Part shown: positions 2,944-12,418 of the stretch, piece after piece
Layout of the letters: every line of letters starts with the position of its first letter
Position numbering within the stretch: position 1 is the stretch's first letter
Virus record (IMG/VR): IMGVR_UViG_3300024320_000029
Location: 1 to 28,611 of that record
Length of the DNA stretch: 28,611 nucleotides
Reading direction: 5' to 3' (one strand)
Origin: a virus
Notes under the pieces: model-generated
Databases searched by the model: none
The model's input: the letters and a program-made list of their open reading frames with translations, nothing else
Told to the model about the DNA's origin: nothing
Program-made: the position numbers and the translations under genes

Positions 2944-4773
2944 TTATTTTGTTTTAAATTCATTAAATGTTAACACTGTTTCTTTCTGTTGAACTTTGCT
3001 TAGTTCTAATTGTAATTCATAGAACATAGAATGAATTGAAGGTGGTGTTAACTGCTTAAACTCCTCTTCATTCTCGTTTATTATTGCTTCTCTAACTTTA
3101 GTAGCACTAACATTTTCTTCGTCTCTTTGTATTTCAAAAAGACTAAATTCTTCTAGAACATTTAATTGCTCTCTATATTTTGCATTGTCAACTTGATATC
3201 CGTAACCTTTCATTCTGTCAGTTCCGGAACCCCAAAGAACTGGTTCGTATTTAGGTCTAAGTTGGTTAAATATCTTATCTATTCCTGCAGTTTCTACAAC
3301 TATAACATCTTCTATTTTTTGATCGGCTTTTGCCAATTCTAAGAGTTGCATTTGAGTTTCAGTTGTAAAAGGTCTTCTTTGAGCATCGTCTTTTTTCTTA
3401 GTTTTTGACTTTACTAAAACGACAACAGTGTTTAAACCATTTTGCTCATATAAATTTTCTAATACTTTAGTATGTCCTAATGTAAATGGTTGAAATCTTC
3501 CAACAAACATATTTACTTTTTTAGCACCTCTTTCAATATAATCTACTTTAAGTCCTTCGTTTATAGGACTTTTCTGTGATTTTAAAGTATCATTGATTTT
3601 AAAAGTTTGGAAGTCCATTATTTCAGACTCTTCTACTTCACCAAATACTTTTGATTTTATCGACTTAACTATGTTATTTAAAGATTCTAATATTTCTCCA
3701 GTTAAAAGAGAAGTTTCTTTATCTCTTAATTTTCTAAAAGTTCCTAAAGTTATCTTTAATAATTCAGCAACTTGTTTTGAATCGTTTATATTTTTTATAG
3801 TCTCTTGATTATTTAAAAATATAGGGTTTAATTCAAATTCTTTTTCTTTTGCGAAATCTGCGCTTTTAAAATCTATTCCTAAAAATGAATCTCTATGTTC
3901 TTTTAAAAATGAATTAAATCCAGCAGACATAATCTCTAAATATCTGTCGTCTGTTTTTTCACCTTCCAACTTAATTTTACCAAAATCAAATTTGTTAAAA
4001 TATTCAATAAGTCTTAAAACTGTTATTTGATATGCATCTGAAGAACTTCTTTCTTCTTTTCTAGATTCTTTTAAAGGACTTTGAATCTTAAAGTTTTTTA
4101 CAGTGCTTCCATCTTGAAAAGTTACAATTAAACCATCAATGTCCTTAGATAAATCATTGTGTAATTTAGAATTGTGAATAGACTCATTAAATACTTTAAA
4201 TATTCTGTGAGTAAAACTGAAGTCACTAAAGAACTCCTCTGCTTCATCTATATTTAAAGCTAGTATGTTAATTAGTTTTTCGACTTGATATTCAGCAAGT
4301 TTACCATTGAATATAATAGTGGGTTCATCTACTTCTAAAATAGTTGCCCACTTGTTTAATATCTTAGGGTCTTTAATTACCTTCTTAACTCTACCGTCCT
4401 CTTGTAATACTTGGATATGAGTTAATATAAGATTGTTTTTTGGAACATTATCATACTCTACAGATACAGTCTTATTTGAAGTCATGTAGTCAAAACCAAA
4501 TTTCCAATCATGTGGAAGCTGTTCAACTTTTTCAGGAAGCAATGCGTTAAAATGTTTAATTGCTTTTTCGTAATATGAAACTATTGTTCGATCTATTTTA
4601 TTAATAGGTTCATTTTTACCAGATTTAAAAAACTCCATGACACCATTATTTCTATGGGTATAGAAACTGCTTGCTTGAATCTTTTCAGTAACGATGCATT
4701 TCTGCGATAGAAGTTGTTTTACGTCTTCTAATTCGTTAGCTTCAAAATAATCTTTTAAGTCTTTTAGTGCCAT
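2944..4773 (-). CDS. RNA ligase (Rnl2-like) - NMN adenylyltransferase fusion
   Basis: A 609-aa two-domain protein. The N-terminal part carries nucleotidyltransferase-superfamily signatures like T4 RNA ligase 2: motif I EKIQASSF with K31 as the expected adenylated lysine (T4 Rnl2 has EKIHGTNF), a region around W90-KFGFDYM resembling motif III, D-G-L-I-V (213-217) as motif IV and N-F-K-I-Q (227-231) near motif V. The usual motif I glycine is alanine (A34), so activity is not assured. Residues 420-565 form a cytidylyltransferase-like NMNAT: GRFQPFTLGH (425-434) is the (H/T)xGH nucleotide-binding motif and VSATKVR (555-561) the downstream phosphate-binding motif. NMNAT makes NAD+ from NMN and ATP. 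Between the domains lies I404-N405-E406/G407, a prohead-protease-like site. The gene ends one base before the next start. The NMNAT call is strong, the ligase call moderate, and cleavage is inference. Confidence 0.8.
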   Translation of the reverse strand: MALKDLKDYFEANELEDVKQLLSQKCIVTEKIQASSFYTHRNNGVMEFFKSGKNEPINKIDRTIVSYYEKAIKHFNALLPEKVEQLPHDWKFGFDYMTSNKTVSVEYDNVPKNNLILTHIQVLQEDGRVKKVIKDPKILNKWATILEVDEPTIIFNGKLAEYQVEKLINILALNIDEAEEFFSDFSFTHRIFKVFNESIHNSKLHNDLSKDIDGLIVTFQDGSTVKNFKIQSPLKESRKEERSSSDAYQITVLRLIEYFNKFDFGKIKLEGEKTDDRYLEIMSAGFNSFLKEHRDSFLGIDFKSADFAKEKEFELNPIFLNNQETIKNINDSKQVAELLKITLGTFRKLRDKETSLLTGEILESLNNIVKSIKSKVFGEVEESEIMDFQTFKINDTLKSQKSPINEGLKVDYIERGAKKVNMFVGRFQPFTLGHTKVLENLYEQNGLNTVVVLVKSKTKKKDDAQRRPFTTETQMQLLELAKADQKIEDVIVVETAGIDKIFNQLRPKYEPVLWGSGTDRMKGYGYQVDNAKYREQLNVLEEFSLFEIQRDEENVSATKVREAIINENEEEFKQLTPPSIHSMFYELQLELSKVQQKETVLTFNEFKTK

Positions 4774-4806
4774 TTTATTTTTTTATAGTTAATAAATTTA
4801 ATTTGT

Positions 4807-5463
4807 TTATACTCCATTCATTATGTCTTCTAGAAGTTTTGCAAAACCTTTCGAAAACCCTAATCTACGGTTTGATAATCCTATTGTAGAGTAATTAGAC
4901 CCATGGTCATAATCAAAAGCTATTCCACCATCATTACTATTCCATTCTTCAAATACAAAAAAGAGCAAATACAATTCTTGCATTATTTTATCTTTTATTC
5001 TTTCATCAATTCCACTTCCGATAGTTACTCCTATTATATAACTCGTACTTCCATTGTTGAAATTTACTCTTGGTCGAATATCTCCACTAACAGTCGATCT
5101 CATTGTTCCAGACCAACCAGCTGATGCTGGAGTACTAGACTGCTCAACTTCATCTCCTTTATATTTCTTAATAACTTTTGCTATTTCTCCTGCTAATAAT
5201 TTTGAGCTGTTAGGGTTGAATATTTCAAAGTCTGCTCTTTTTGGAGAATATTGTCTAGCAAAATCTCCCATGTGTTTATCATATCGAATATTGCTAGGCT
5301 TCATTTTTTCAAGTTTTGCGACTATTTTGTCATACCATCTTTCTCCTGCTGCTGCCTGGTGTTTAGAGTATTCTAAAGATGCTTCTATTTTAGCAGCTAT
5401 TCCTTTTTTACCAAATTGAATTCCTTCGTTTATAAATTCGTTGAATGATTCATGTAATTTCAT
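4807..5463 (-). CDS. Unknown 218-aa protein with capsid-targeting-like leader
   Basis: I do not recognise this 218-aa protein. Its start codon overlaps the stop of the ligase-like gene by one base (TAATG), so the two are translationally coupled. The first 13 residues, MKLHESFNEFINE followed by G14, closely resemble the leader of T4 internal proteins (IPI and IPIII begin MKTYQEFIAEA), with I11-N12-E13 as the expected gp21 site. The body is mixed: a basic helical part (residues 15-60), then alternating strand-like segments (about 125-150) and a C-terminal helix. No signal peptide, membrane segment, catalytic motif or cysteine cluster is visible. Context between two ligase-type genes suggests a shared role, but none can be assigned. 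Confidence 0.8.
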   Translation of the reverse strand: MKLHESFNEFINEGIQFGKKGIAAKIEASLEYSKHQAAAGERWYDKIVAKLEKMKPSNIRYDKHMGDFARQYSPKRADFEIFNPNSSKLLAGEIAKVIKKYKGDEVEQSSTPASAGWSGTMRSTVSGDIRPRVNFNNGSTSYIIGVTIGSGIDERIKDKIMQELYLLFFVFEEWNSNDGGIAFDYDHGSNYSTIGLSNRRLGFSKGFAKLLEDIMNGV

Positions 5464-6728
5464 TATCTTCCGTATTTTATTATCCCCATTAACTGATTTA
5501 TTGCAGCAAATGTTCCTGTTAATTTCATAGTCTTTCCTTTGTACTTAAATACAATTCCCTCTGTTGGAACTATACTTTCAATACCTCCAATAGTTTCCAG
5601 TCTATTAAGTTCACTTTCTATTTTTTGGACCTGCGTAAGGTCTCCATTTAGTTTTATATCTTTAGCAGCTTTTCTAATCTTATTATGTAGATTTTCTTTT
5701 TCTAGATCAGGGTTTGCTGCTACAAAATTACTTGCATTTTTTAAAACATCAGCGCCTAACTCTAAAAACAAATTCTCAAATGGCAATATATTCTGCTTGT
5801 ATTTTTTATGTCTATCTTTATCAAAGTCTTTAATTTTAGATAAAACATCGGGTTCTACCATTTTTTTGATAGCTACCATATTAAGAGTTTGTTTGTCTTT
5901 ATATGCCCATCTTAAAAATAAACCTTCTTTTATTTTTGAATCTAAATCTTTAAATTCTTTTTCTATTTCTTTACTCCACCATGCCTCATGATATTCTTTT
6001 ACTTCATCACCATCTTTTAAACCAAACTCATCTCTTAATTTGTCTAACTTTTTAAAATAATAGTCTCTTCTAGCCTCAAAGTCAATATCTTTTTGAAGTT
6101 TAATAATTTGAGGAGGTATGATTGTAAAAGTCTTTTGCACATCTAATTCGACACTTTTAATAATTTTAGCCAATTTTCCACCAGCTTTGCCGTCTTCTGA
6201 TATAATCTTTCCAGTTTCATCTACTTCTACCATTCCATGAAATTGAATTAAATCTCTATCATAATTAATTACATTAGGATTTTTAGTGTAAATGATTTCC
6301 ATATTCAAGAAGTTTGTTCCTTCTTTAAAATCTGAAGTATCTTTAAGGTTAGATAGTGAAGCATCTAAATCTTTAGCTGCTAAAACAAAAGTTTCTTCTA
6401 CTAAAGAAGATGCATGTCCTTTAAACATATTAATAATGCCAGCCAAATCCATTGGACTTATTAAAGTTCCCTTGTTTCTAGCAAAAAGCACTTTACCATT
6501 TTTAACAGTTGCAAATAAATTCTGACCGTCTGTTTTTTCAGTAGGTCCTTCTTCAAATGTCAAACTGCCTTGTAAACCATCTTCTACAATTCCTTTGAAA
6601 TCTTTAAATGTCAAATCATGAAAATCAAACGGATGAGCCATATGCCCAGCAGCACCACCTTCTAAAATAAGCTGATTTTCTGCAGTTTGATATTTTTCAA
6701 TTAAGAATTCTGTATAGGTCTTAAGCAT
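5463..6728 (-). CDS. KTDG-type nucleotidyltransferase/RNA-ligase-like protein with leader
   Basis: A 421-aa member of the covalent nucleotidyltransferase (ligase) superfamily by motif. T-E-K65-T-D-G-Q-N is motif I with K65 as the likely AMP-accepting lysine, F-A-R84-N-K follows as the conserved arginine region, L-N-M-E144 fits motif III, E390-G-I-V-F fits motif IV and K-Y-K-G-K-T-M-K (395-402) fits motif V. The N-terminus (MLKTYTEFLIEK through I21-L22-E23/G24) resembles a T4 capsid-targeting leader. The next residues (GGAAGHMAHPFD) resemble the opening of a widespread phage family that I recall only as ligase-like. The long insert (about 200-360) is charged and helical. A terminator and a candidate promoter lie just upstream. 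Whether RNA or DNA is joined cannot be told. The superfamily call is firm, the substrate unknown. Confidence 0.78.
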   Translation of the reverse strand: MLKTYTEFLIEKYQTAENQLILEGGAAGHMAHPFDFHDLTFKDFKGIVEDGLQGSLTFEEGPTEKTDGQNLFATVKNGKVLFARNKGTLISPMDLAGIINMFKGHASSLVEETFVLAAKDLDASLSNLKDTSDFKEGTNFLNMEIIYTKNPNVINYDRDLIQFHGMVEVDETGKIISEDGKAGGKLAKIIKSVELDVQKTFTIIPPQIIKLQKDIDFEARRDYYFKKLDKLRDEFGLKDGDEVKEYHEAWWSKEIEKEFKDLDSKIKEGLFLRWAYKDKQTLNMVAIKKMVEPDVLSKIKDFDKDRHKKYKQNILPFENLFLELGADVLKNASNFVAANPDLEKENLHNKIRKAAKDIKLNGDLTQVQKIESELNRLETIGGIESIVPTEGIVFKYKGKTMKLTGTFAAINQLMGIIKYGR

Positions 6729-6748
6729 TAGTATATTATATGTTTATA

Positions 6749-6776
6749 CAAATATAATAAAAAAAATCAACCCAAA
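6749..6776 (-). promoter_or_regulatory. Candidate Bacteroidota-type promoter for the ligase-like gene
   Basis: The minus strand reads TATATTTG at 6756-6749, matching the TAnnTTTG -7 box of Bacteroidota housekeeping promoters. A TTTG at 6776-6773 lies 16 nt upstream, somewhat closer than typical for the -33 element. The box is about 20 nt before the ATG at 6728 and overlaps the terminator, so transcription could restart here. In DNA this AT-rich a chance match is quite possible. Confidence 0.35.
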
Positions 6777-6790
6777 AAAATCTGGGCTGA
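6757..6790 (-). terminator. Rho-independent terminator after the 474-aa gene
   Basis: On the minus strand TCAGCCCA (6790-6783) pairs with TGGGTTGA (6774-6767) over 8 bp with one G-U pair and an 8-nt loop, followed at once by a run of eight T. It sits 17 nt after the stop of the 474-aa gene. This is the clearest hairpin-plus-T-tract terminator in the window, and it separates the 474-aa gene and the replication block upstream from the ligase/NMNAT block. Confidence 0.75.
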
Positions 6791-6807
6791 ATTTTTTTAA
6801 ATTATTT

Positions 6808-8232
6808 TTAACCTACTGAAGACTGCAACATTCCAATTGCTGCACCGTAATCTCCATCGGCTTTTTTCAGCATTCCTTCTGCTGCTTCTTTTGCTTTTTC
6901 TTCGTCGTATTTATCACCGAACGCTTTTTTGTAAATAGTGGTTGCCATTTCAATAAAGTCTTCGTCTGATTTAACTTCTGCTTCGTCAAGATTTGTAGAT
7001 TCACTTAATGAATTTTTTAAGCCGCAATGTACACATTCTACTGTTCCATCTGATTCTATTTGCTTATATAAATGTCCTTTTCTATTAGAACATTTTGGCT
7101 CGTCTGATTCAAAAGTTTTACTTTCGTAAATTTCCATAACACCGTCTCTAGTGACTCTTATTTCAGCTCCTTCAAATTGTGCATTGAATGCATTTAACAT
7201 TGATTGAGCAGTTGAATCATCTTTTAACATTGTTGATATGTAAAGAGCACATCCTTCTACAATTGCTTGGCCTCCCCAACCAGCTGCTGCTGAAATATCT
7301 GAAACGTGATTAAATAATATTTCTTTAATTCTTCCAGAACTAATTTTAGCATGATATCCTCCAAGACCTGGTAATTTAATTTCAATACCTTTAATATTAG
7401 CGCCTTTTATTGCTTTTAAGACTGCTGGTTTTTCAGTGTGGAAGTTAGCATCAGTCATTGCTTCTCCGCAAATATATTTTACACATCCTAGCATTCCTTC
7501 TTTTCCAAGTTGACCTAAATCTACTAACTTTTTAGTAAAAAGTCTATTCAGTTGAGTAACTACTTTTTTAGCAGCTCTTTTTCTCTCTACTTGAATTGCT
7601 TCGTTAATTTCTACCTCTTCAGTAATTTCTGATTCAAATTTATGGCCTACAATTATACAATTTGCAACTCCAGGAAAGTATTCTCCTTGGTCTGTTTGTA
7701 TTCTTCCGCTTGAACTTGATTTGTGAGGTTCAGTAAAACTTTTGACCGTAATTGGGTCTCCTCTAAAGTCTTTAGTCTTATATGGTAATTTAACAATCTT
7801 TCCAGTTTTTTCATCCATTAATTGAGCAGCTTCTTCTACTTTATAAGTTTCGCCATCAACTTCGAATTCTTCTTCTCCGTCTTCTTTAGCTTTTTTAACA
7901 GCAGCTCCAAATTTGTTACCTTCTACTTGATATTTCTTGCCATCAACTTCGAATTCTTCTTCTCCGTCTTCTTTAGCTTTTTTAACAGCAGCTCCAAATT
8001 TGTTACCTTCTGTTTCTAAATCTTCGTTATTATTAGATAATGTTGTAAAAAACTCGGTTCTTTTTTCTTCATCTAGTTCAGCAACTGAAGATACGTTATA
8101 TTTTGATAATAGTTCAGTAAATCTCTGTGCTTCAACTTGTCTATTTACAGTAGCAGCCCATTTCTCTTTATCTTCAATAATTCTTTTTCTAGTTTGAGAA
8201 AAACTAGCAAATGTTTCTAATTTTCTTTCCAT
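6808..8232 (-). CDS. 474-aa repeat- and zinc-finger-containing protein with internal xxNE/xxDE sites
   Basis: I do not recognise the whole protein. Domains in order: a helical charged N-terminus (1-70); two identical-type repeats, 75-103 and 104-132, each starting EGNKFGAAVKKAKEDGEEEF and ending in a short strand (EVDGKKY); a beta segment (140-200); a central domain (212-375) with G-G-Y-H and A-A-G-W-G-G stretches; a putative zinc-binding C381-x5-H387-x12-C400-x2-C403; and a helical C-terminus (418-474). Sites resembling prohead protease cleavage, I209-N-E211/A and L415-D-E417/A, separate the central and C-terminal parts. There is no obvious N-terminal leader. The repeat unit resembles motifs I associate with marine phage structural proteins, from memory. 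It follows uvsW by 41 nt and ends in a terminator. A head-internal or structural role is inference. Confidence 0.8.
   Translation of the reverse strand: MERKLETFASFSQTRKRIIEDKEKWAATVNRQVEAQRFTELLSKYNVSSVAELDEEKRTEFFTTLSNNNEDLETEGNKFGAAVKKAKEDGEEEFEVDGKKYQVEGNKFGAAVKKAKEDGEEEFEVDGETYKVEEAAQLMDEKTGKIVKLPYKTKDFRGDPITVKSFTEPHKSSSSGRIQTDQGEYFPGVANCIIVGHKFESEITEEVEINEAIQVERKRAAKKVVTQLNRLFTKKLVDLGQLGKEGMLGCVKYICGEAMTDANFHTEKPAVLKAIKGANIKGIEIKLPGLGGYHAKISSGRIKEILFNHVSDISAAAGWGGQAIVEGCALYISTMLKDDSTAQSMLNAFNAQFEGAEIRVTRDGVMEIYESKTFESDEPKCSNRKGHLYKQIESDGTVECVHCGLKNSLSESTNLDEAEVKSDEDFIEMATTIYKKAFGDKYDEEKAKEAAEGMLKKADGDYGAAIGMLQSSVG
7852..8011 (-). repeat. Exact 73-bp tandem repeat with 87-bp period
   Basis: Positions 7852-7924 and 7939-8011 are identical over 73 bp, separated by 14 bp, giving an 87-bp (29-codon) period inside the 474-aa gene. 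Perfect identity, including third positions, points to recent duplication or gene conversion. Copy number could vary between relatives. Confidence 0.95.
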
Positions 8233-8273: not shown

Positions 8274-9776
8274 TTATCCATCAAATTGAAATTTCTTAAT
8301 CTCATACTTGAATTTCTGATCTTTATAGATTTTCTGTCTAACCTGAGAATGCTTCATTAGATAGTTTTTCCATTGATCCGTACATAAATCATCTACAAAA
8401 TCTATGATTAAAACTTTATCTTTTGACTCATGTTGTCTTAAACCTCTACCAATACTTTGTCTTATAATAACCTCCGATTTAAAACTTTCTGTAAAGAATA
8501 TATTGTGTATCTTTTTAATGGAAATACCCGTTGAAAACGTACCATAACTTGCTACGATGACTACGTCATCTCCTTTTTCCATTTTCTTTTTATATTCTTC
8601 TCTAATATCCTTATCTATACCTCCATCTACATAGTAAATAGTCTTATCGGTATCTTGTCTAAGTTTATCATATATCTTTTTACCATGTTCTATTCTATGA
8701 AATAAAACTAAACTATTTTTAGGTATTTTACCTATTACTTTTGTAATAAAATCCAATCTGGCTTCTGACTGTATTATGTAGTTCTGTTCTAATTGGAATA
8801 CATCTTTGCTTTCATATCTGTTCTGAGACATTTCTTCAAATGCTTTTTTAGCTGATTCAGGTGCATAATTCATTTCAATAACTTTTACGAAACATTTTGC
8901 TATATGACCTTCTTCCTGTAAAAAGTGTGCATTTACCTCTGATATCAAAGGTCCTGTATGTGCCATTAAAGTTAATCTATCTAAAGTTCCCTCTTTTGGA
9001 ATTGTACCTGAAAGACCATATCTATATTCTGCATTTGTACATTTTGAAAGAATAGTCTTGATTGATTGGCTTTTCATTTTATGACACTCATCAATAATTA
9101 CAGCATCGAACTGATCGAAGTACTCTTTTTCTTTTTTAACAAGAGATTGATAAGTACCTATAACGACATTTCTACCATCTCTTATTTTCTGCCCACTATA
9201 TATTTGTTGAACTTTTATATTTACTCTATTTTGAAAATTATAATCATTAAAGTCTTCGGTTGCTTGCACTACTAAAGATACATTAGGAACTATAAACAAA
9301 ATCTTTTTTGCTTTTTCTCTTTCTAGAAGATATGCAACTGTAAGAAAACTTATCAGTGTTTTTCCTGCAGATGTTGCAAGTTCACTTAAACATTTTCTAA
9401 ATTTTAGTATATTGTATGCTGCTTCTATTTGATAGTCTCTTGGTGTTATTTCGTTTCCTTCAAAAAACCCTAAAGCCCATTTCTCGAACCAATCTGCTGT
9501 TATGTTTTTATCAAACAGTTCAGTGACTCCTTCTATTTTTAATTCGAATTTGTATTCTTTACAAACATTATAGACATATCTCCAAAGTCCAGCTGGAATC
9601 CATTTGTTATCTTTAAAATAAGAAACGTATCCATCCCACACTCCTCTCTTTACAAGAGGGTTAAATCTCCAACTATCTATTCTTTTAGTTAAAGAAATAT
9701 TAAGTTGTTCTAGTTCTAATTCTGTCGCCTCGTCAACTCTTAAGAATTGCTTATTCTCCGTTAGTGTTAGTAACAT
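8274..9776 (-). CDS. uvsW: UvsW-like SF2 DNA helicase
   Basis: A 500-aa superfamily 2 helicase matching T4 UvsW in length and layout. T4 UvsW unwinds branched DNA and R-loops and drives fork regression during recombination-dependent replication. Motifs: a UvsW-like N-terminal DNA-binding part (about 1-105), R-D-Y-Q Q-motif-like region (113-116), Walker A ATSAGKT (134-140), Walker B/motif II DECH (229-232), motif III SGT (256-258), and motif VI QSIGRGLRQ (440-448). All key helicase residues look intact. It lies directly after the uvsY-like gene (21-nt gap), the same partnership as in T4, which supports both calls. The leader contains AGGAAAT, one of few purine-rich stretches in front of a start here. 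Confidence 0.93.
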   Translation of the reverse strand: MLLTLTENKQFLRVDEATELELEQLNISLTKRIDSWRFNPLVKRGVWDGYVSYFKDNKWIPAGLWRYVYNVCKEYKFELKIEGVTELFDKNITADWFEKWALGFFEGNEITPRDYQIEAAYNILKFRKCLSELATSAGKTLISFLTVAYLLEREKAKKILFIVPNVSLVVQATEDFNDYNFQNRVNIKVQQIYSGQKIRDGRNVVIGTYQSLVKKEKEYFDQFDAVIIDECHKMKSQSIKTILSKCTNAEYRYGLSGTIPKEGTLDRLTLMAHTGPLISEVNAHFLQEEGHIAKCFVKVIEMNYAPESAKKAFEEMSQNRYESKDVFQLEQNYIIQSEARLDFITKVIGKIPKNSLVLFHRIEHGKKIYDKLRQDTDKTIYYVDGGIDKDIREEYKKKMEKGDDVVIVASYGTFSTGISIKKIHNIFFTESFKSEVIIRQSIGRGLRQHESKDKVLIIDFVDDLCTDQWKNYLMKHSQVRQKIYKDQKFKYEIKKFQFDG

Positions 9777-9797
9777 TATTCATATTTCCTTTCTTTA

Positions 9798-10241
9798 TCA
9801 TACCAGATCTTTTATCGCCAATCTGTTACGAACAGCAAAACCCATATTATCTAGAGTTTTTACTGACTCTCTATAGAAATCTACTTGATTTTCTAATAGA
9901 GATAAAATCATTCTATCATCTCCAAGTTCTGCTTCGATAAACTTTTCTCTAATCTTATCAGTTAACTTGTAATCATAATTGTAATATCTTATCCAAGCAT
10001 CTTTCCACTTTATGTCATTTCTTCTTTTTTGGTCTTTTTGCTTTACTTGAACATACATTAACTGCTCGACTAATTGTTGTCTAACATTTAAGATATCAGA
10101 AATAACGACTTCCATTCCTGAAAGCGTTTTAATACCGTTTGCCAGTACAGTTATTTTACCGGTCCATGCAGCTCTTTGTTCTCCTAATTTTCTATCTAAA
10201 AGTAATACTCTGCTTTCTTGTGTTTTTGCTCCTTCTTCCAT
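9798..10241 (-). CDS. uvsY: UvsY-like recombination mediator
   Basis: A 147-aa, highly charged helical protein, close to T4 UvsY (137 aa). UvsY loads UvsX recombinase onto gp32-covered ssDNA. The C-terminal pattern fits: a hydrophobic helix (LLENQVDFYRESVKTLDNMG) followed by F-A-V-R-N-R-L, like the T4 ending with LLDFCSGALDAIKSRGFAIK. The N-terminal half has the expected long amphipathic helix and lysine/arginine-rich stretch (KQKDQKRRNDIKWK). It starts immediately after the 68-aa gene (TAAATG) and precedes uvsW, as expected for the T4 recombination cluster. UvsX is not in the window. Similarity is judged by pattern, not alignment. Confidence 0.75.
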   Translation of the reverse strand: MEEGAKTQESRVLLLDRKLGEQRAAWTGKITVLANGIKTLSGMEVVISDILNVRQQLVEQLMYVQVKQKDQKRRNDIKWKDAWIRYYNYDYKLTDKIREKFIEAELGDDRMILSLLENQVDFYRESVKTLDNMGFAVRNRLAIKDLV

Positions 10242-10448
10242 TTAAAATAATGATTTATCTTTGTTATTTGGCCTTATAAATTTGGCCGCTTTTAATTTCT
10301 TTTTATGTTTAGGCTTTGGAATTTCAAATCCAGTGCTTAAATATTCTTTGTCTTTAAACTCAAAATCTATAAGATGTTTAAGATTTTTAAATCTATCACC
10401 ATCATTATAGAACTTGTCTATTTCTTCTTCCATACTTAAATCAAACAT
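10242..10448 (-). CDS. Small 68-aa protein with C-terminal SLF
   Basis: A 68-aa protein with an acidic N-terminal half and a strongly basic second half (KPKHKKKLKAAKFIRP), ending in K-D-K-S-L-F. I do not recognise it. Its start overlaps the primase stop by 8 nt and its stop abuts the uvsY start, so it is clearly part of the replication operon. A terminal S-L-F resembles sliding-clamp-binding tails (S/D-L-F core), and T4 carries small clamp-binding factors such as gp33 that are placed near replication genes. A clamp- or polymerase-binding role is a guess from those features. Gene reality is supported by its tight overlap with both neighbours. Confidence 0.7.
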   Translation of the reverse strand: MFDLSMEEEIDKFYNDGDRFKNLKHLIDFEFKDKEYLSTGFEIPKPKHKKKLKAAKFIRPNNKDKSLF

Positions 10449-11523
10449 ACAACAGATCTAATTTATTATTCGTGAAATAGTTATTTAATTCAGATAAATT
10501 TAACTTAATCTGGTTATTATAGCAGACTTTTATTAAATCATTCAGATCTTTTATGTTATTATATTTATCTAATTTTTTATCTTTGATATATTTTGACCAC
10601 ATAAATACGGTCTTTCCTTTTTTAAGTTTTTCTATGGTCTTTTTAAGACCTGCACTATCGTTGTCTAGCATATATCTTACTGATTCGATAGCATCTAATT
10701 TCATAGTATCTCTTCCAACTGTACAGAGTGCTATAGAGTTCTTCATAAACATAGCATCCATTGGTCCTTCAAATACAGTTACAGGCTGCTGAAAGTTTAC
10801 GTTTAATGCTCCAAAAAGAGTTGAAACGTTGTTGATTCCTGTAAGTGTTTCTTCTTCTAGTTCTAAAGGCTTATTTAAAATCGTTTCGTATATTTTTGAA
10901 ATATCATAAGTTAAATATCTAGAGCCTTTTCCTTTCATTCTTCTTGCTTGTGCTCCGACAATTTTACCTTCTAATGTTTTATTTAATATCCACAGTCTAC
11001 CTTCTCTTTCGTTATATAAGAACCTATCTAGTTTGTGGCTTAAAAGTCTATTTTTTAATTGAAACCATATCCAATCTCCTGGAACTATTTTCTTAGAATT
11101 GGTGGCTTTCATAAAATCTTTTTCTTCTACTGCAAGATTTATTATTTTTTCATATACAAATGGAGTAAACTTTTCGTACTCTTGAGTGGCAGCTTTATTT
11201 ACCTTTATATAATCTAAAACTTCTATAACGTCCATGTTTTCTGACATTCTAATTCCATGGTCTTTTAAGAAATTATAAATATCAGAATGGTGGTCGCAAT
11301 TAAAGCAATGATATTGTAAAGTGCTCCAATAAACGTTACCTCTTTTTAAGGTGTCGTCTTTAGTAGAGTCTCCACAATAAGGACATGCCAGGCTTAGTCT
11401 ACCTGACATGTCTTTTATCATTTGCTTGTTGTGGCTTGTGTGTTCTTTAAGAACTACCTGCTTTAAAGCTTTTTTGATTTTTTCTTTAAGTTCTAATGTA
11501 AGTATATTAGATTTCGAGGTCAT
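10441..11523 (-). CDS. DnaG-type primase, T4 gp61-like
   Basis: A 360-aa primase that would make RNA primers on the lagging strand with the gp41-type helicase, which is not in the window. The N-terminal zinc ribbon is intact: C47-P-Y-C50 and C73-F-N-C76. A Toprim domain follows: F-E252-G-P-M-D-A carries the catalytic glutamate and L-D287-N-D289-S-A-G the metal-binding aspartates. Length fits T4 gp61 (342 aa) and lacks a helicase domain, so it is not a T7-like fused primase-helicase. It overlaps the gp32 stop by 17 nt and the next gene by 8 nt, indicating coupled translation with the ssDNA-binding protein. Confidence 0.88.
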   Translation of the reverse strand: MTSKSNILTLELKEKIKKALKQVVLKEHTSHNKQMIKDMSGRLSLACPYCGDSTKDDTLKRGNVYWSTLQYHCFNCDHHSDIYNFLKDHGIRMSENMDVIEVLDYIKVNKAATQEYEKFTPFVYEKIINLAVEEKDFMKATNSKKIVPGDWIWFQLKNRLLSHKLDRFLYNEREGRLWILNKTLEGKIVGAQARRMKGKGSRYLTYDISKIYETILNKPLELEEETLTGINNVSTLFGALNVNFQQPVTVFEGPMDAMFMKNSIALCTVGRDTMKLDAIESVRYMLDNDSAGLKKTIEKLKKGKTVFMWSKYIKDKKLDKYNNIKDLNDLIKVCYNNQIKLNLSELNNYFTNNKLDLLYV

Positions 11524-12418
11524 TCAAAAAAGATTCTAAGTCAGCACTAGATTCTCCACTTCCGGTTGGTGTTGTTTCCGGGGCAGCTGCAGCTTCTGTT
11601 TTCGGAGTTGCTTTTGCAGCTGGCTTATCAAAAGTTTGGTTTGTAACTTTATCCATTGCGTCTCCTGGATTTAAGTACATTTTGATAACGCTATTAACGA
11701 ATTCTCTAGTTGGCTCATCCCATGCTCTATACTCAAAAGATGCAAGTGAAGGTGCTCCTTCTAGTTCTGTTTTAATAGTAGCCATATCTTCTTCTACTCT
11801 TTCCGCTGGTTTAGACTTTTCACCAATAACAACTGCTGATTTTGAAGATGAAAACTTAGACGTGTCATAATTATTATAATCATTCTGTCTAGTAATTACT
11901 AATTCAAAATTCTTACCTTCAAATAAATCGAACACTTGTGTTGGGTCACCGAAATTAGGCTTTAATTCAGCATCGATTTTTTCTTTGATTTTATAACCAA
12001 ATTTAAAAATCTTGTAAGTTCCTTCTAATTCAGGATGCTGTGGATCTTTGATGATTTTTACAAGAGAAACATATTGCTCTCTTCTTTTTAATTTATCAGA
12101 AGCTTTACGGTCTACCGCTGAATCTGATTTTCTTAATTTCCAAAAAGCGTCTGCTACTGGGCAACTTTCACCGATTGAACTTGGAGAATCTACTAATTTT
12201 GATTCACCATCAGGGCCTGTTAGCCAGTTGACGTATTTCTTAATTAAACTGTTTCTTGGGTTTTCTACGTTAGGTACAAAACGAATAAGAGCCTTATAGG
12301 TTCCGTCTTTACCATCATCCGCAGTAGGCTTATACATTGTATTTGTGCCTGTGTTTTGTGGTTGTTCATGCGTATCGATATCTTCTACACCAATACTAAA
12401 AATGTTAAATTCACTCAT
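11507..12418 (-). CDS. gp32-like single-stranded DNA-binding protein
   Basis: A 303-aa protein matching T4 gp32 (301 aa) in length and organisation: N-terminal tail, OB-fold core, and an A/P/T-rich linker leading to an acidic tail (SSADLESFLNDLEI). The core segment S-C86-P-V-A-D, then Y-V-S-L-V-K-I-I-K-D-P, then the G-T-Y-K-I-F-K-F-G-Y-K-I region follows the T4 order (CPVCQY, ILVVKDP, KVFKYRFGKKI). T4 gp32 binds zinc through three cysteines and a histidine; here only C86 of that set is visible, so the zinc site is probably lost. The acidic tail is where T4 partners such as gp59, UvsY and polymerase dock. About 300 nt of non-coding DNA lies upstream, where T4 gp32 is translationally autoregulated. 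Confidence 0.85.
   Translation of the reverse strand: MSEFNIFSIGVEDIDTHEQPQNTGTNTMYKPTADDGKDGTYKALIRFVPNVENPRNSLIKKYVNWLTGPDGESKLVDSPSSIGESCPVADAFWKLRKSDSAVDRKASDKLKRREQYVSLVKIIKDPQHPELEGTYKIFKFGYKIKEKIDAELKPNFGDPTQVFDLFEGKNFELVITRQNDYNNYDTSKFSSSKSAVVIGEKSKPAERVEEDMATIKTELEGAPSLASFEYRAWDEPTREFVNSVIKMYLNPGDAMDKVTNQTFDKPAAKATPKTEAAAAPETTPTGSGESSADLESFLNDLEI

Follow-up and report, generated by a model that had tools for sequence, protein, structure and literature searches.

Gene and domain architecture

The stretch of DNA analyzed here (the window) is a 28.6-kb virus fragment. Because it also carries genes for UvsW, gp32 and primase, we consider the phage to be T4-like. The closest relative of its UvsW belongs to an uncultured 462-kb phage (57%), with other huge phages and cyanophages far behind. 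An open reading frame running from 4773 to 2944 on the minus strand, with an ATG start, encodes a protein of 609 aa that we refer to as P0001. The original prediction had given the correct coordinates for this gene but the strand is corrected here to minus; the motifs that it quoted (EKIQASSF with K31, GRFQPFTLGH, VSATKVR and INE406/G407) are all present at the residues given for them. P0001 (2944-4773) is a predicted precursor made of an RNA-ligase-like domain, a linker resembling a capsid-targeting sequence (CTS) with a protease site, an NMN adenylyltransferase (NMNAT)-like domain and a CTS-like tail. All positions within P0001 given below refer to the minus strand, and a slash marks a predicted cut.

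Proteins with the complete fusion occur in 31 non-redundant IMG/VR relatives as well as in one 462-kb phage (34% identity); the phage collection that we searched contained no cultured member of this clade. An AlphaFold2 (AF2) model built from 30 relatives reached a mean pLDDT of 81.8 and confirmed, at the level of predicted structure, that the reading frame holds two independent folds. When P0001 was searched against structural models of viral proteins, the highest-ranking protein came from an uncultured phage and shared the architecture of P0001 (E = 1.7e-48); alignments with cyanophage "cytidyltransferases" extended over about 700 columns. In the open literature that we searched, we found no earlier report of a ligase-NMNAT fusion as head cargo.

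The RNA-ligase-like domain

Residues 1-376 (3646-4773) are predicted from Foldseek matches and secondary structure to adopt the fold of T4 RNA ligase 2 (Rnl2; RnlB, gp24.1), with a nucleotidyltransferase part at about 1-236 and a helical part at about 246-376. The top PDB match of this region was full-length T4 Rnl2 (2hvq, E = 8.8e-9, probability 1.00), followed by 2hvr, 1s68 (Rnl2 core), a fungal tRNA ligase and T4 Rnl1; further matches included the trypanosome editing ligase REL1 and RNA ligases of Naegleria and archaea. The modeled helices at 246-376 fit the C-terminal helical domain of Rnl2. A resemblance to T4 Rnl2 had been proposed from the motifs, to be abandoned if the region matched no nucleotidyltransferase fold; the Foldseek search recovered a nucleotidyltransferase/ligase fold, and the proposal stands.

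Conservation was assessed in an alignment of 30 marine relatives (A2). The predicted AMP-accepting lysine, K31 (codon at 4681-4683), lies in a motif I that reads EKIQASSF in P0001 and EKIHGTNF in T4 Rnl2, and it is invariant in 30/30 sequences. The other motifs were assigned by eye: a motif III-like WKFGFDYM (residues 90-97; 4483-4506) in which K91-Y96 are invariant, a motif IV-like IDGLI (residues 212-216; 4126-4140) with an invariant acidic D213, and a motif V-like KNFKIQ (residues 226-231; 4081-4098) with invariant F228 and K229. The invariant residues thus include E30, K31, D95, D213 and K229. Unlike T4 Rnl2, P0001 is fused to an NMNAT, has divergent motifs III-V and lacks a Pfam RNA_ligase match, as do the 30 family members searched. 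The comparison of this domain with the T4 Rnl2 family by hhalign, made on shallow alignments, was not significant, and the VIA structure list for P0001 was filled by the NMNAT half and is neutral on the ligase match. We call the domain an Rnl2-like fold on the strength of the model and do not file it as a member of the Rnl2-type family. Judged from the predicted fold alone, a role in RNA repair is plausible.

It is also conceivable, though improbable, that this half is a pseudoenzyme that serves only in RNA binding or head packing and leaves the NMNAT as the sole working part. The position of K31 is taken by Asp in four 635-735 kb phages and by Asn in the 462-kb phage, lysine-less copies persist as standalone proteins in the former, and the second lysine of motif V was not seen when residues were matched to T4 Rnl2 by eye. 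In contrast, K31, D213 and K229 show no variation among the marine relatives. Since Asp or Asn replaces the catalytic lysine in the most distant relatives, not every member of the family need be an active ligase. The standalone copies of the 635-735 kb phages (L083-L086) retain a C-terminal LLxFxD(F/Y) motif.

The NMNAT-like domain

Residues 407-595 (2989-3555) form a domain resembling NMNAT, of the TxGH type and with a predicted HIGH-superfamily nucleotidyltransferase fold. The Pfam family CTP_transf_like (PF01467) matched above its cut-off (E = 4.7e-14), and an archaeal NMN adenylyltransferase matched residues 418-595 with a Z-score of 14.7 over 153 residues, in agreement with the NMNAT call that the original prediction had based on GRFQPFTLGH and VSATKVR. 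The first of these, a nucleotide-binding signature (residues 425-434; 3472-3501), lies in a stretch where nearly all residues from 423 to 434 are invariant in A2. The second, SATKVR (residues 556-561; 3091-3108), has invariant S556, A557, T558, V560 and R561. Both the [HT]xGH and the SxTxxR motifs are therefore present and invariant, as T431-x-G-H434 and S556-A-T-x-V-R561. P0001 resembles archaeal or NadM-type NMNATs in its fold, its GRFQPF signature and its SxTxxR-type signature, but it has TxGH in place of HxGH, is not accompanied by a Nudix partner and scores below the curated cut-offs of the NCBIfam NMNAT models (best 37.2 bits vs. 127). The T variant of [HT]xGH is more usual in PPAT. Because the NCBIfam cut-offs were not reached, we call the domain NMNAT-like and its substrate putative.

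Restoration of NAD+ by this domain is plausible. P0001 recalls NAD+ synthesis by NARP/NadV-NadM in that a phage NMNAT could restore NAD+, but it differs from NARP2 in being predicted head cargo and in that NadV is absent from 9 of the 11 related records. A NadV-like NAPRTase, the usual phage source of NMN, was found in the other two, and the records may be incomplete. In these two (L204 and L205) the NAD+ salvage pathway could be complete. One 205-kb relative has an additional NMNAT-like reading frame, short and standalone (L198:5389-5853).

A very improbable reading makes the two halves a single cycle, in which the ligase takes AMP from NAD+ and frees NMN, from which the NMNAT remakes NAD+. 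This would explain both the recurrent pairing of the two enzymes and the rarity of NadV. NAD+-dependent ligases, however, bind NMN through domain Ia, and K31 lies so near the N-terminus that there is no space for it; the structural neighbors recovered by Foldseek are ATP-dependent RNA ligases. We set this idea aside for want of domain Ia.

Linker, tail and predicted cleavage site

An internal capsid-targeting-like segment spans residues 383-406 (SEIMDFQTFKINDTLKSQKSPINE; 3556-3627), with a helix containing MDFQTF followed by PINE, and its start matches [DNT][FY]xx[FY] in 31/31 non-redundant relatives. It leads into a predicted prohead-protease site, I404-N405-E406/G407 (3553-3564), which fits the specificity of T4 gp21, a protease that cuts after L/I-X-E (PMC9026906). 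At E406 all 31 relatives match both [ILVM]xE[AGS] and the narrower [ILVM]xE[AG], with a varying P2 residue (N, L, T, M). No other position has a site conserved to this extent: the runner-up, in the C-terminal tail, is found in 14 of the 31, and only 4.4% of the glutamates outside the linker stand in a motif of the [ILVM]xE[AGS] type. The original prediction had named a lack of INE/G conservation among homologs as an observation that would count against it; the conservation held. The 462-kb relative has TFE/A instead of a strict site and lacks the C-terminal tag.

The tail (residues 596-609, with LTFNEFKTK; 2947-2988) is CTS-like as well. The pattern [TS]FxxF occurs within the last 14 residues of every one of the 31 relatives, often preceded by (x)E/S. 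The tag-like segments of P0001 are therefore located at residues 386-391 and 602-606, and its N-terminus, MALKDLKDYF, does not have the form of a CTS. P0001 shares with the T4 internal proteins IPIII and Alt an aromatic-xx-aromatic tag and an [LI]-x-E site followed by a small residue, as well as a gp21-type protease in its relatives; unlike these proteins, whose CTS is N-terminal, it has its tags between the enzyme domains and at the C-terminus. In the AF2 model an isolated helix (388-398) has a stretch with pLDDT below 50 on either side (382-385 and 401-407). E406 lies behind this MDFxTF helix in a part taken as disordered, and confidence in the linker is low exactly around E382 and E406. Likewise, pLDDT falls below 50 at 596-602 before a helix at 603-608. 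These low-confidence stretches around the linker and tail helices are the positions where cutting would be expected.

For the E406 site, the reading that we favor is that an NMNAT gene once stood on its own and that its N-terminal tag and cut site have been kept here. The ATG at residue 386 may also allow independent translation of the NMNAT half, since GAAGAG stands about 9 nt upstream, but some relatives have Leu, His or Tyr in place of this Met.

Head protease, capsid protein and tags in related phages

In the T4 CTS, targeting to the capsid is the task of positions 4 and 7, and positions 8 and 10 permit the cut (PMC9026906). A prohead protease of the gp21 type (PF03420) is encoded in 11 of 12 related records; the window itself has none. 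The Gp23 major capsid protein of relatives begins with MANLINEAEIRGTWAPIIEEATGINES, and its N-termini show sites of the same type as the linker (INE followed by A or S, and I(E/K/S)E/AT). The protease of these relatives, of the S77 type, lies in one large reading frame (about 635-830 aa; L171-L178) together with a scaffold-like region, in contrast to T4, where gp21 and gp22 are separate. The scaffold-like region is full of [ILV]xE[AGS] sites, for example [VLI]AE followed by A or S.

We scanned the genome of one 205-kb relative with a strict CTS pattern, [FY]xxF[ILVMT]xE. The pattern was found at 13 N-termini of open reading frames, compared with 0.56 in shuffles (maximum 4). Several of the tagged reading frames, which have starts such as MKTYEEFINEA, flank the P0001 homolog, and some multidomain neighbors carry the strict pattern internally. 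Because neighboring genes bear both N-terminal and internal CTSs, the arrangement of P0001 is part of a wider pattern in this cluster. The multidomain cargo candidates with an internal CTS in this genome (G002; L190-L201) lie at 54283-56241, 59139-61592 and 61592-62098, and the first has, by eye, the look of an S41-type peptidase.

Ligase-motif partners and virion NMNATs

A second ligase-motif protein, P0002 (5463-6728, minus strand), is encoded upstream of P0001 in the window and in nearly all relatives. It carries an N-terminal capsid-targeting leader (MLKTYTEFLIEKYQTAENQLILE; 6660-6728, minus strand), which in the family follows the form ML(K/L)TYxxFLxEK...LILE/GG. The motifs KxDG, R, E, EG and K are invariant in 16 diverse members of the family and occur in the order expected of ligases. 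The putative ligase fold of P0002 is based on these motifs, as its AF2 model reached a pLDDT of 45 on an alignment that was too shallow. A 218-aa neighbor starts with the leader MKLHESFNEFINE (5425-5463, minus strand), which fits the strict CTS pattern. The original prediction had noted the signature of the linker in adjacent leaders, and these are real: MKLHESFNEFINE/G and MLKTYTEFLIEK..LILE/GG. In L061 the P0002-P0001 gene pair occurs twice in tandem (4683-7833 and 8780-11942), with diverged copies.

The cyanophage NMNAT-like family T4-GC190 (cytidylyltransferase/NMNAT; phrog_395/phrog_3041/phrog_455) presented an N-terminal CTS in 80 of the 81 retrieved reading frames, with a DUF6267 gene beside it. 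This NMNAT was detected by mass spectrometry in virions of S-SM1 (PMC3037559), S-SCSM1 (PMC9602691) and S-CREM2 (PMC10665884), although authors of such work caution that a highly expressed protein could be carried over during purification (PMC9602691). The detected proteins start with MKKFSAFLNE/A, MKSFLQFLKE/A and MKNFSSFLTE/A, respectively. Because all three bear CTS starts, they support both the tag rule and the packaging of this type of enzyme. DUF6267 (PF19782), a family of unknown function that is common in cyanophages, displays a set of ligase motifs (KWDGAP, GTKSVFNKK, QGD/QAD, HEGFV and KLVDR) in which KWDG, GTK, EG and K are invariant. It adjoins or is fused to the virion NMNAT at L242:1351-2247, L245:1871-3076, L246:1390-2271 and in p138 of S-PM2 (L240:526-1104), in which the DUF6267 region continues into the NMNAT. 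These cyanophage proteins resemble P0001 in combining a CTS-tagged virion NMNAT with a KxDG ligase-motif partner; they differ in that the partner belongs to another ligase-motif family, the genes are usually separate and the CTS is mostly at the N-terminus of the NMNAT.

Another arrangement is found in WWT39297.1 of Microcystis phage Mel-JY01, in which NMNAT-like and ligase-motif domains are joined in one protein around an IxE/GG site (IIAE/GG). Its domain order is opposite to that of P0001, with the NMNAT first, and its ligase half belongs to the P0002 family. LR756508 (918 aa) and two 735-aa IMG/VR proteins are similar fusions. Profile comparison of the P0002 family with Rnl2 was weak, a PDB profile search with the same family returned nothing relevant, and DUF6267 gave no significant match to the P0001 N-terminal domain or to P0002. 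In view of these weak or non-significant comparisons, we do not treat the three as one family.

These fusions bear on two other explanations of P0001. According to the first, which we regard as quite improbable, P0001 works in the infected cell as a stable, uncut bifunctional enzyme with a linker motif that serves in docking or dimer formation. The S-PM2 fusion, which has neither CTS nor site in its linker, is consistent with this. The conserved site of P0001, however, fits the substrates of the phage's own protease, and its linker is modeled with low confidence at both glutamates. According to the second, which is somewhat unlikely, neighboring head-cargo genes simply lost their stop codons and the protease separates the products again, so that ligase and NMNAT are functionally unrelated. 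Other multidomain proteins of the cluster indeed carry an internal CTS and site, and the DUF6267 and NMNAT genes, both present in S-CREM2 and S-SCSM1, are not adjacent there. In contrast, the pairing of NMNAT with ligase motifs recurs in various forms in P0001, Mel-JY01, LR756508, the 735-aa proteins and the cyanophages with DUF6267.

A candidate precursor of two injected enzymes

We propose, with a probability of roughly three in four, that P0001 is a capsid-targeted precursor of two enzymes that is cut in the head into ligase and NMNAT, both of which are injected. A gene similar to that of RNA ligase 2 would have joined, in the same reading frame, an NMNAT gene that lay downstream of it and bore a T4-type CTS and a head-protease site, so that the former tag of the NMNAT would now be the linker (MDFQTF...PINE/G); the C-terminus has another tag-like peptide. 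As the head is assembled, the prohead core would take up all of P0001 by way of the tag, and a gp21-type protease would cut it there after E406, and probably also in the tail, to release ligase and NMNAT inside the head. Both would be ejected with the DNA and be active as infection begins, when their most plausible tasks are to reseal cut RNA and to keep NAD+ up. We infer in this way the packaging, cleavage and catalysis of P0001, its role at the start of infection and its role against host defenses. That one gene may yield two mature enzymes had already been suggested. The gp21-type protease of related records, the same type of site in Gp23, the conserved CTS-like segment and the N-terminal CTS of virion cyanophage NMNATs all favor this idea; what changes is the reading of the site, now taken as a retained tag. 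Weighing against the proposal are the internal and C-terminal placement of the tags, the TFE/A sequence and missing C-terminal tag of the 462-kb relative, the absence of K31 from distant relatives, the rarity of NadV and the non-significant profile comparison with T4 Rnl2.

If this proposal is correct, phage heads hold ready-made enzymes for RNA repair and NAD+ restoration that would act before phage gene expression, just when tRNA-cutting and NAD+-depleting defenses fire. It would also explain the repeated presence of NMNAT in cyanophage virions and propose a biochemical identity for DUF6267, a core cyanophage family. The aromatic-xx-F tag combined with [LI]xE followed by A, G or S would become a simple predictor of injected proteins in uncultured T4-like phages, and the prohead protease would gain a new function, the cutting of a cargo polyprotein into separate enzymes within the head. 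More tentatively, and with somewhat less than an even chance, marine and huge T4-like phages may make polyprotein head cargo, with more than one enzyme per chain, punctuated by CTSs and protease sites, which would allow a single import and matched amounts of ligase and NMNAT. DUF6267, P0002 and the N-terminal domain of P0001 would then be three ligase-fold partner families of virion NMNATs, forming a pre-loaded anti-defense kit.

Other genes of the window

Three further genes on the minus strand of the window present tag-like or site-like sequences. A 345-aa neighbor of P0001 (1926-2963) displays, by eye, a PD-(D/E)XK-like pattern and is a possible injected nuclease; it has a MIYE/A site near its start, which is LLVE/G in the 205-kb relative. 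A 626-aa reading frame that is open at the window edge (2-1879) has MQDFEKYLESLDE/G at its N-terminus and, internally, MVHTKFTDYVNE/SYNESAEINE/A, another linker composed of a tag and a site. Finally, a 474-aa protein (6808-8232) starts with the tag-like MERKLETFASFSQTRK and contains a near-perfect internal duplication (EGNKFGAAVKKAKEDGEEEFEVDG).
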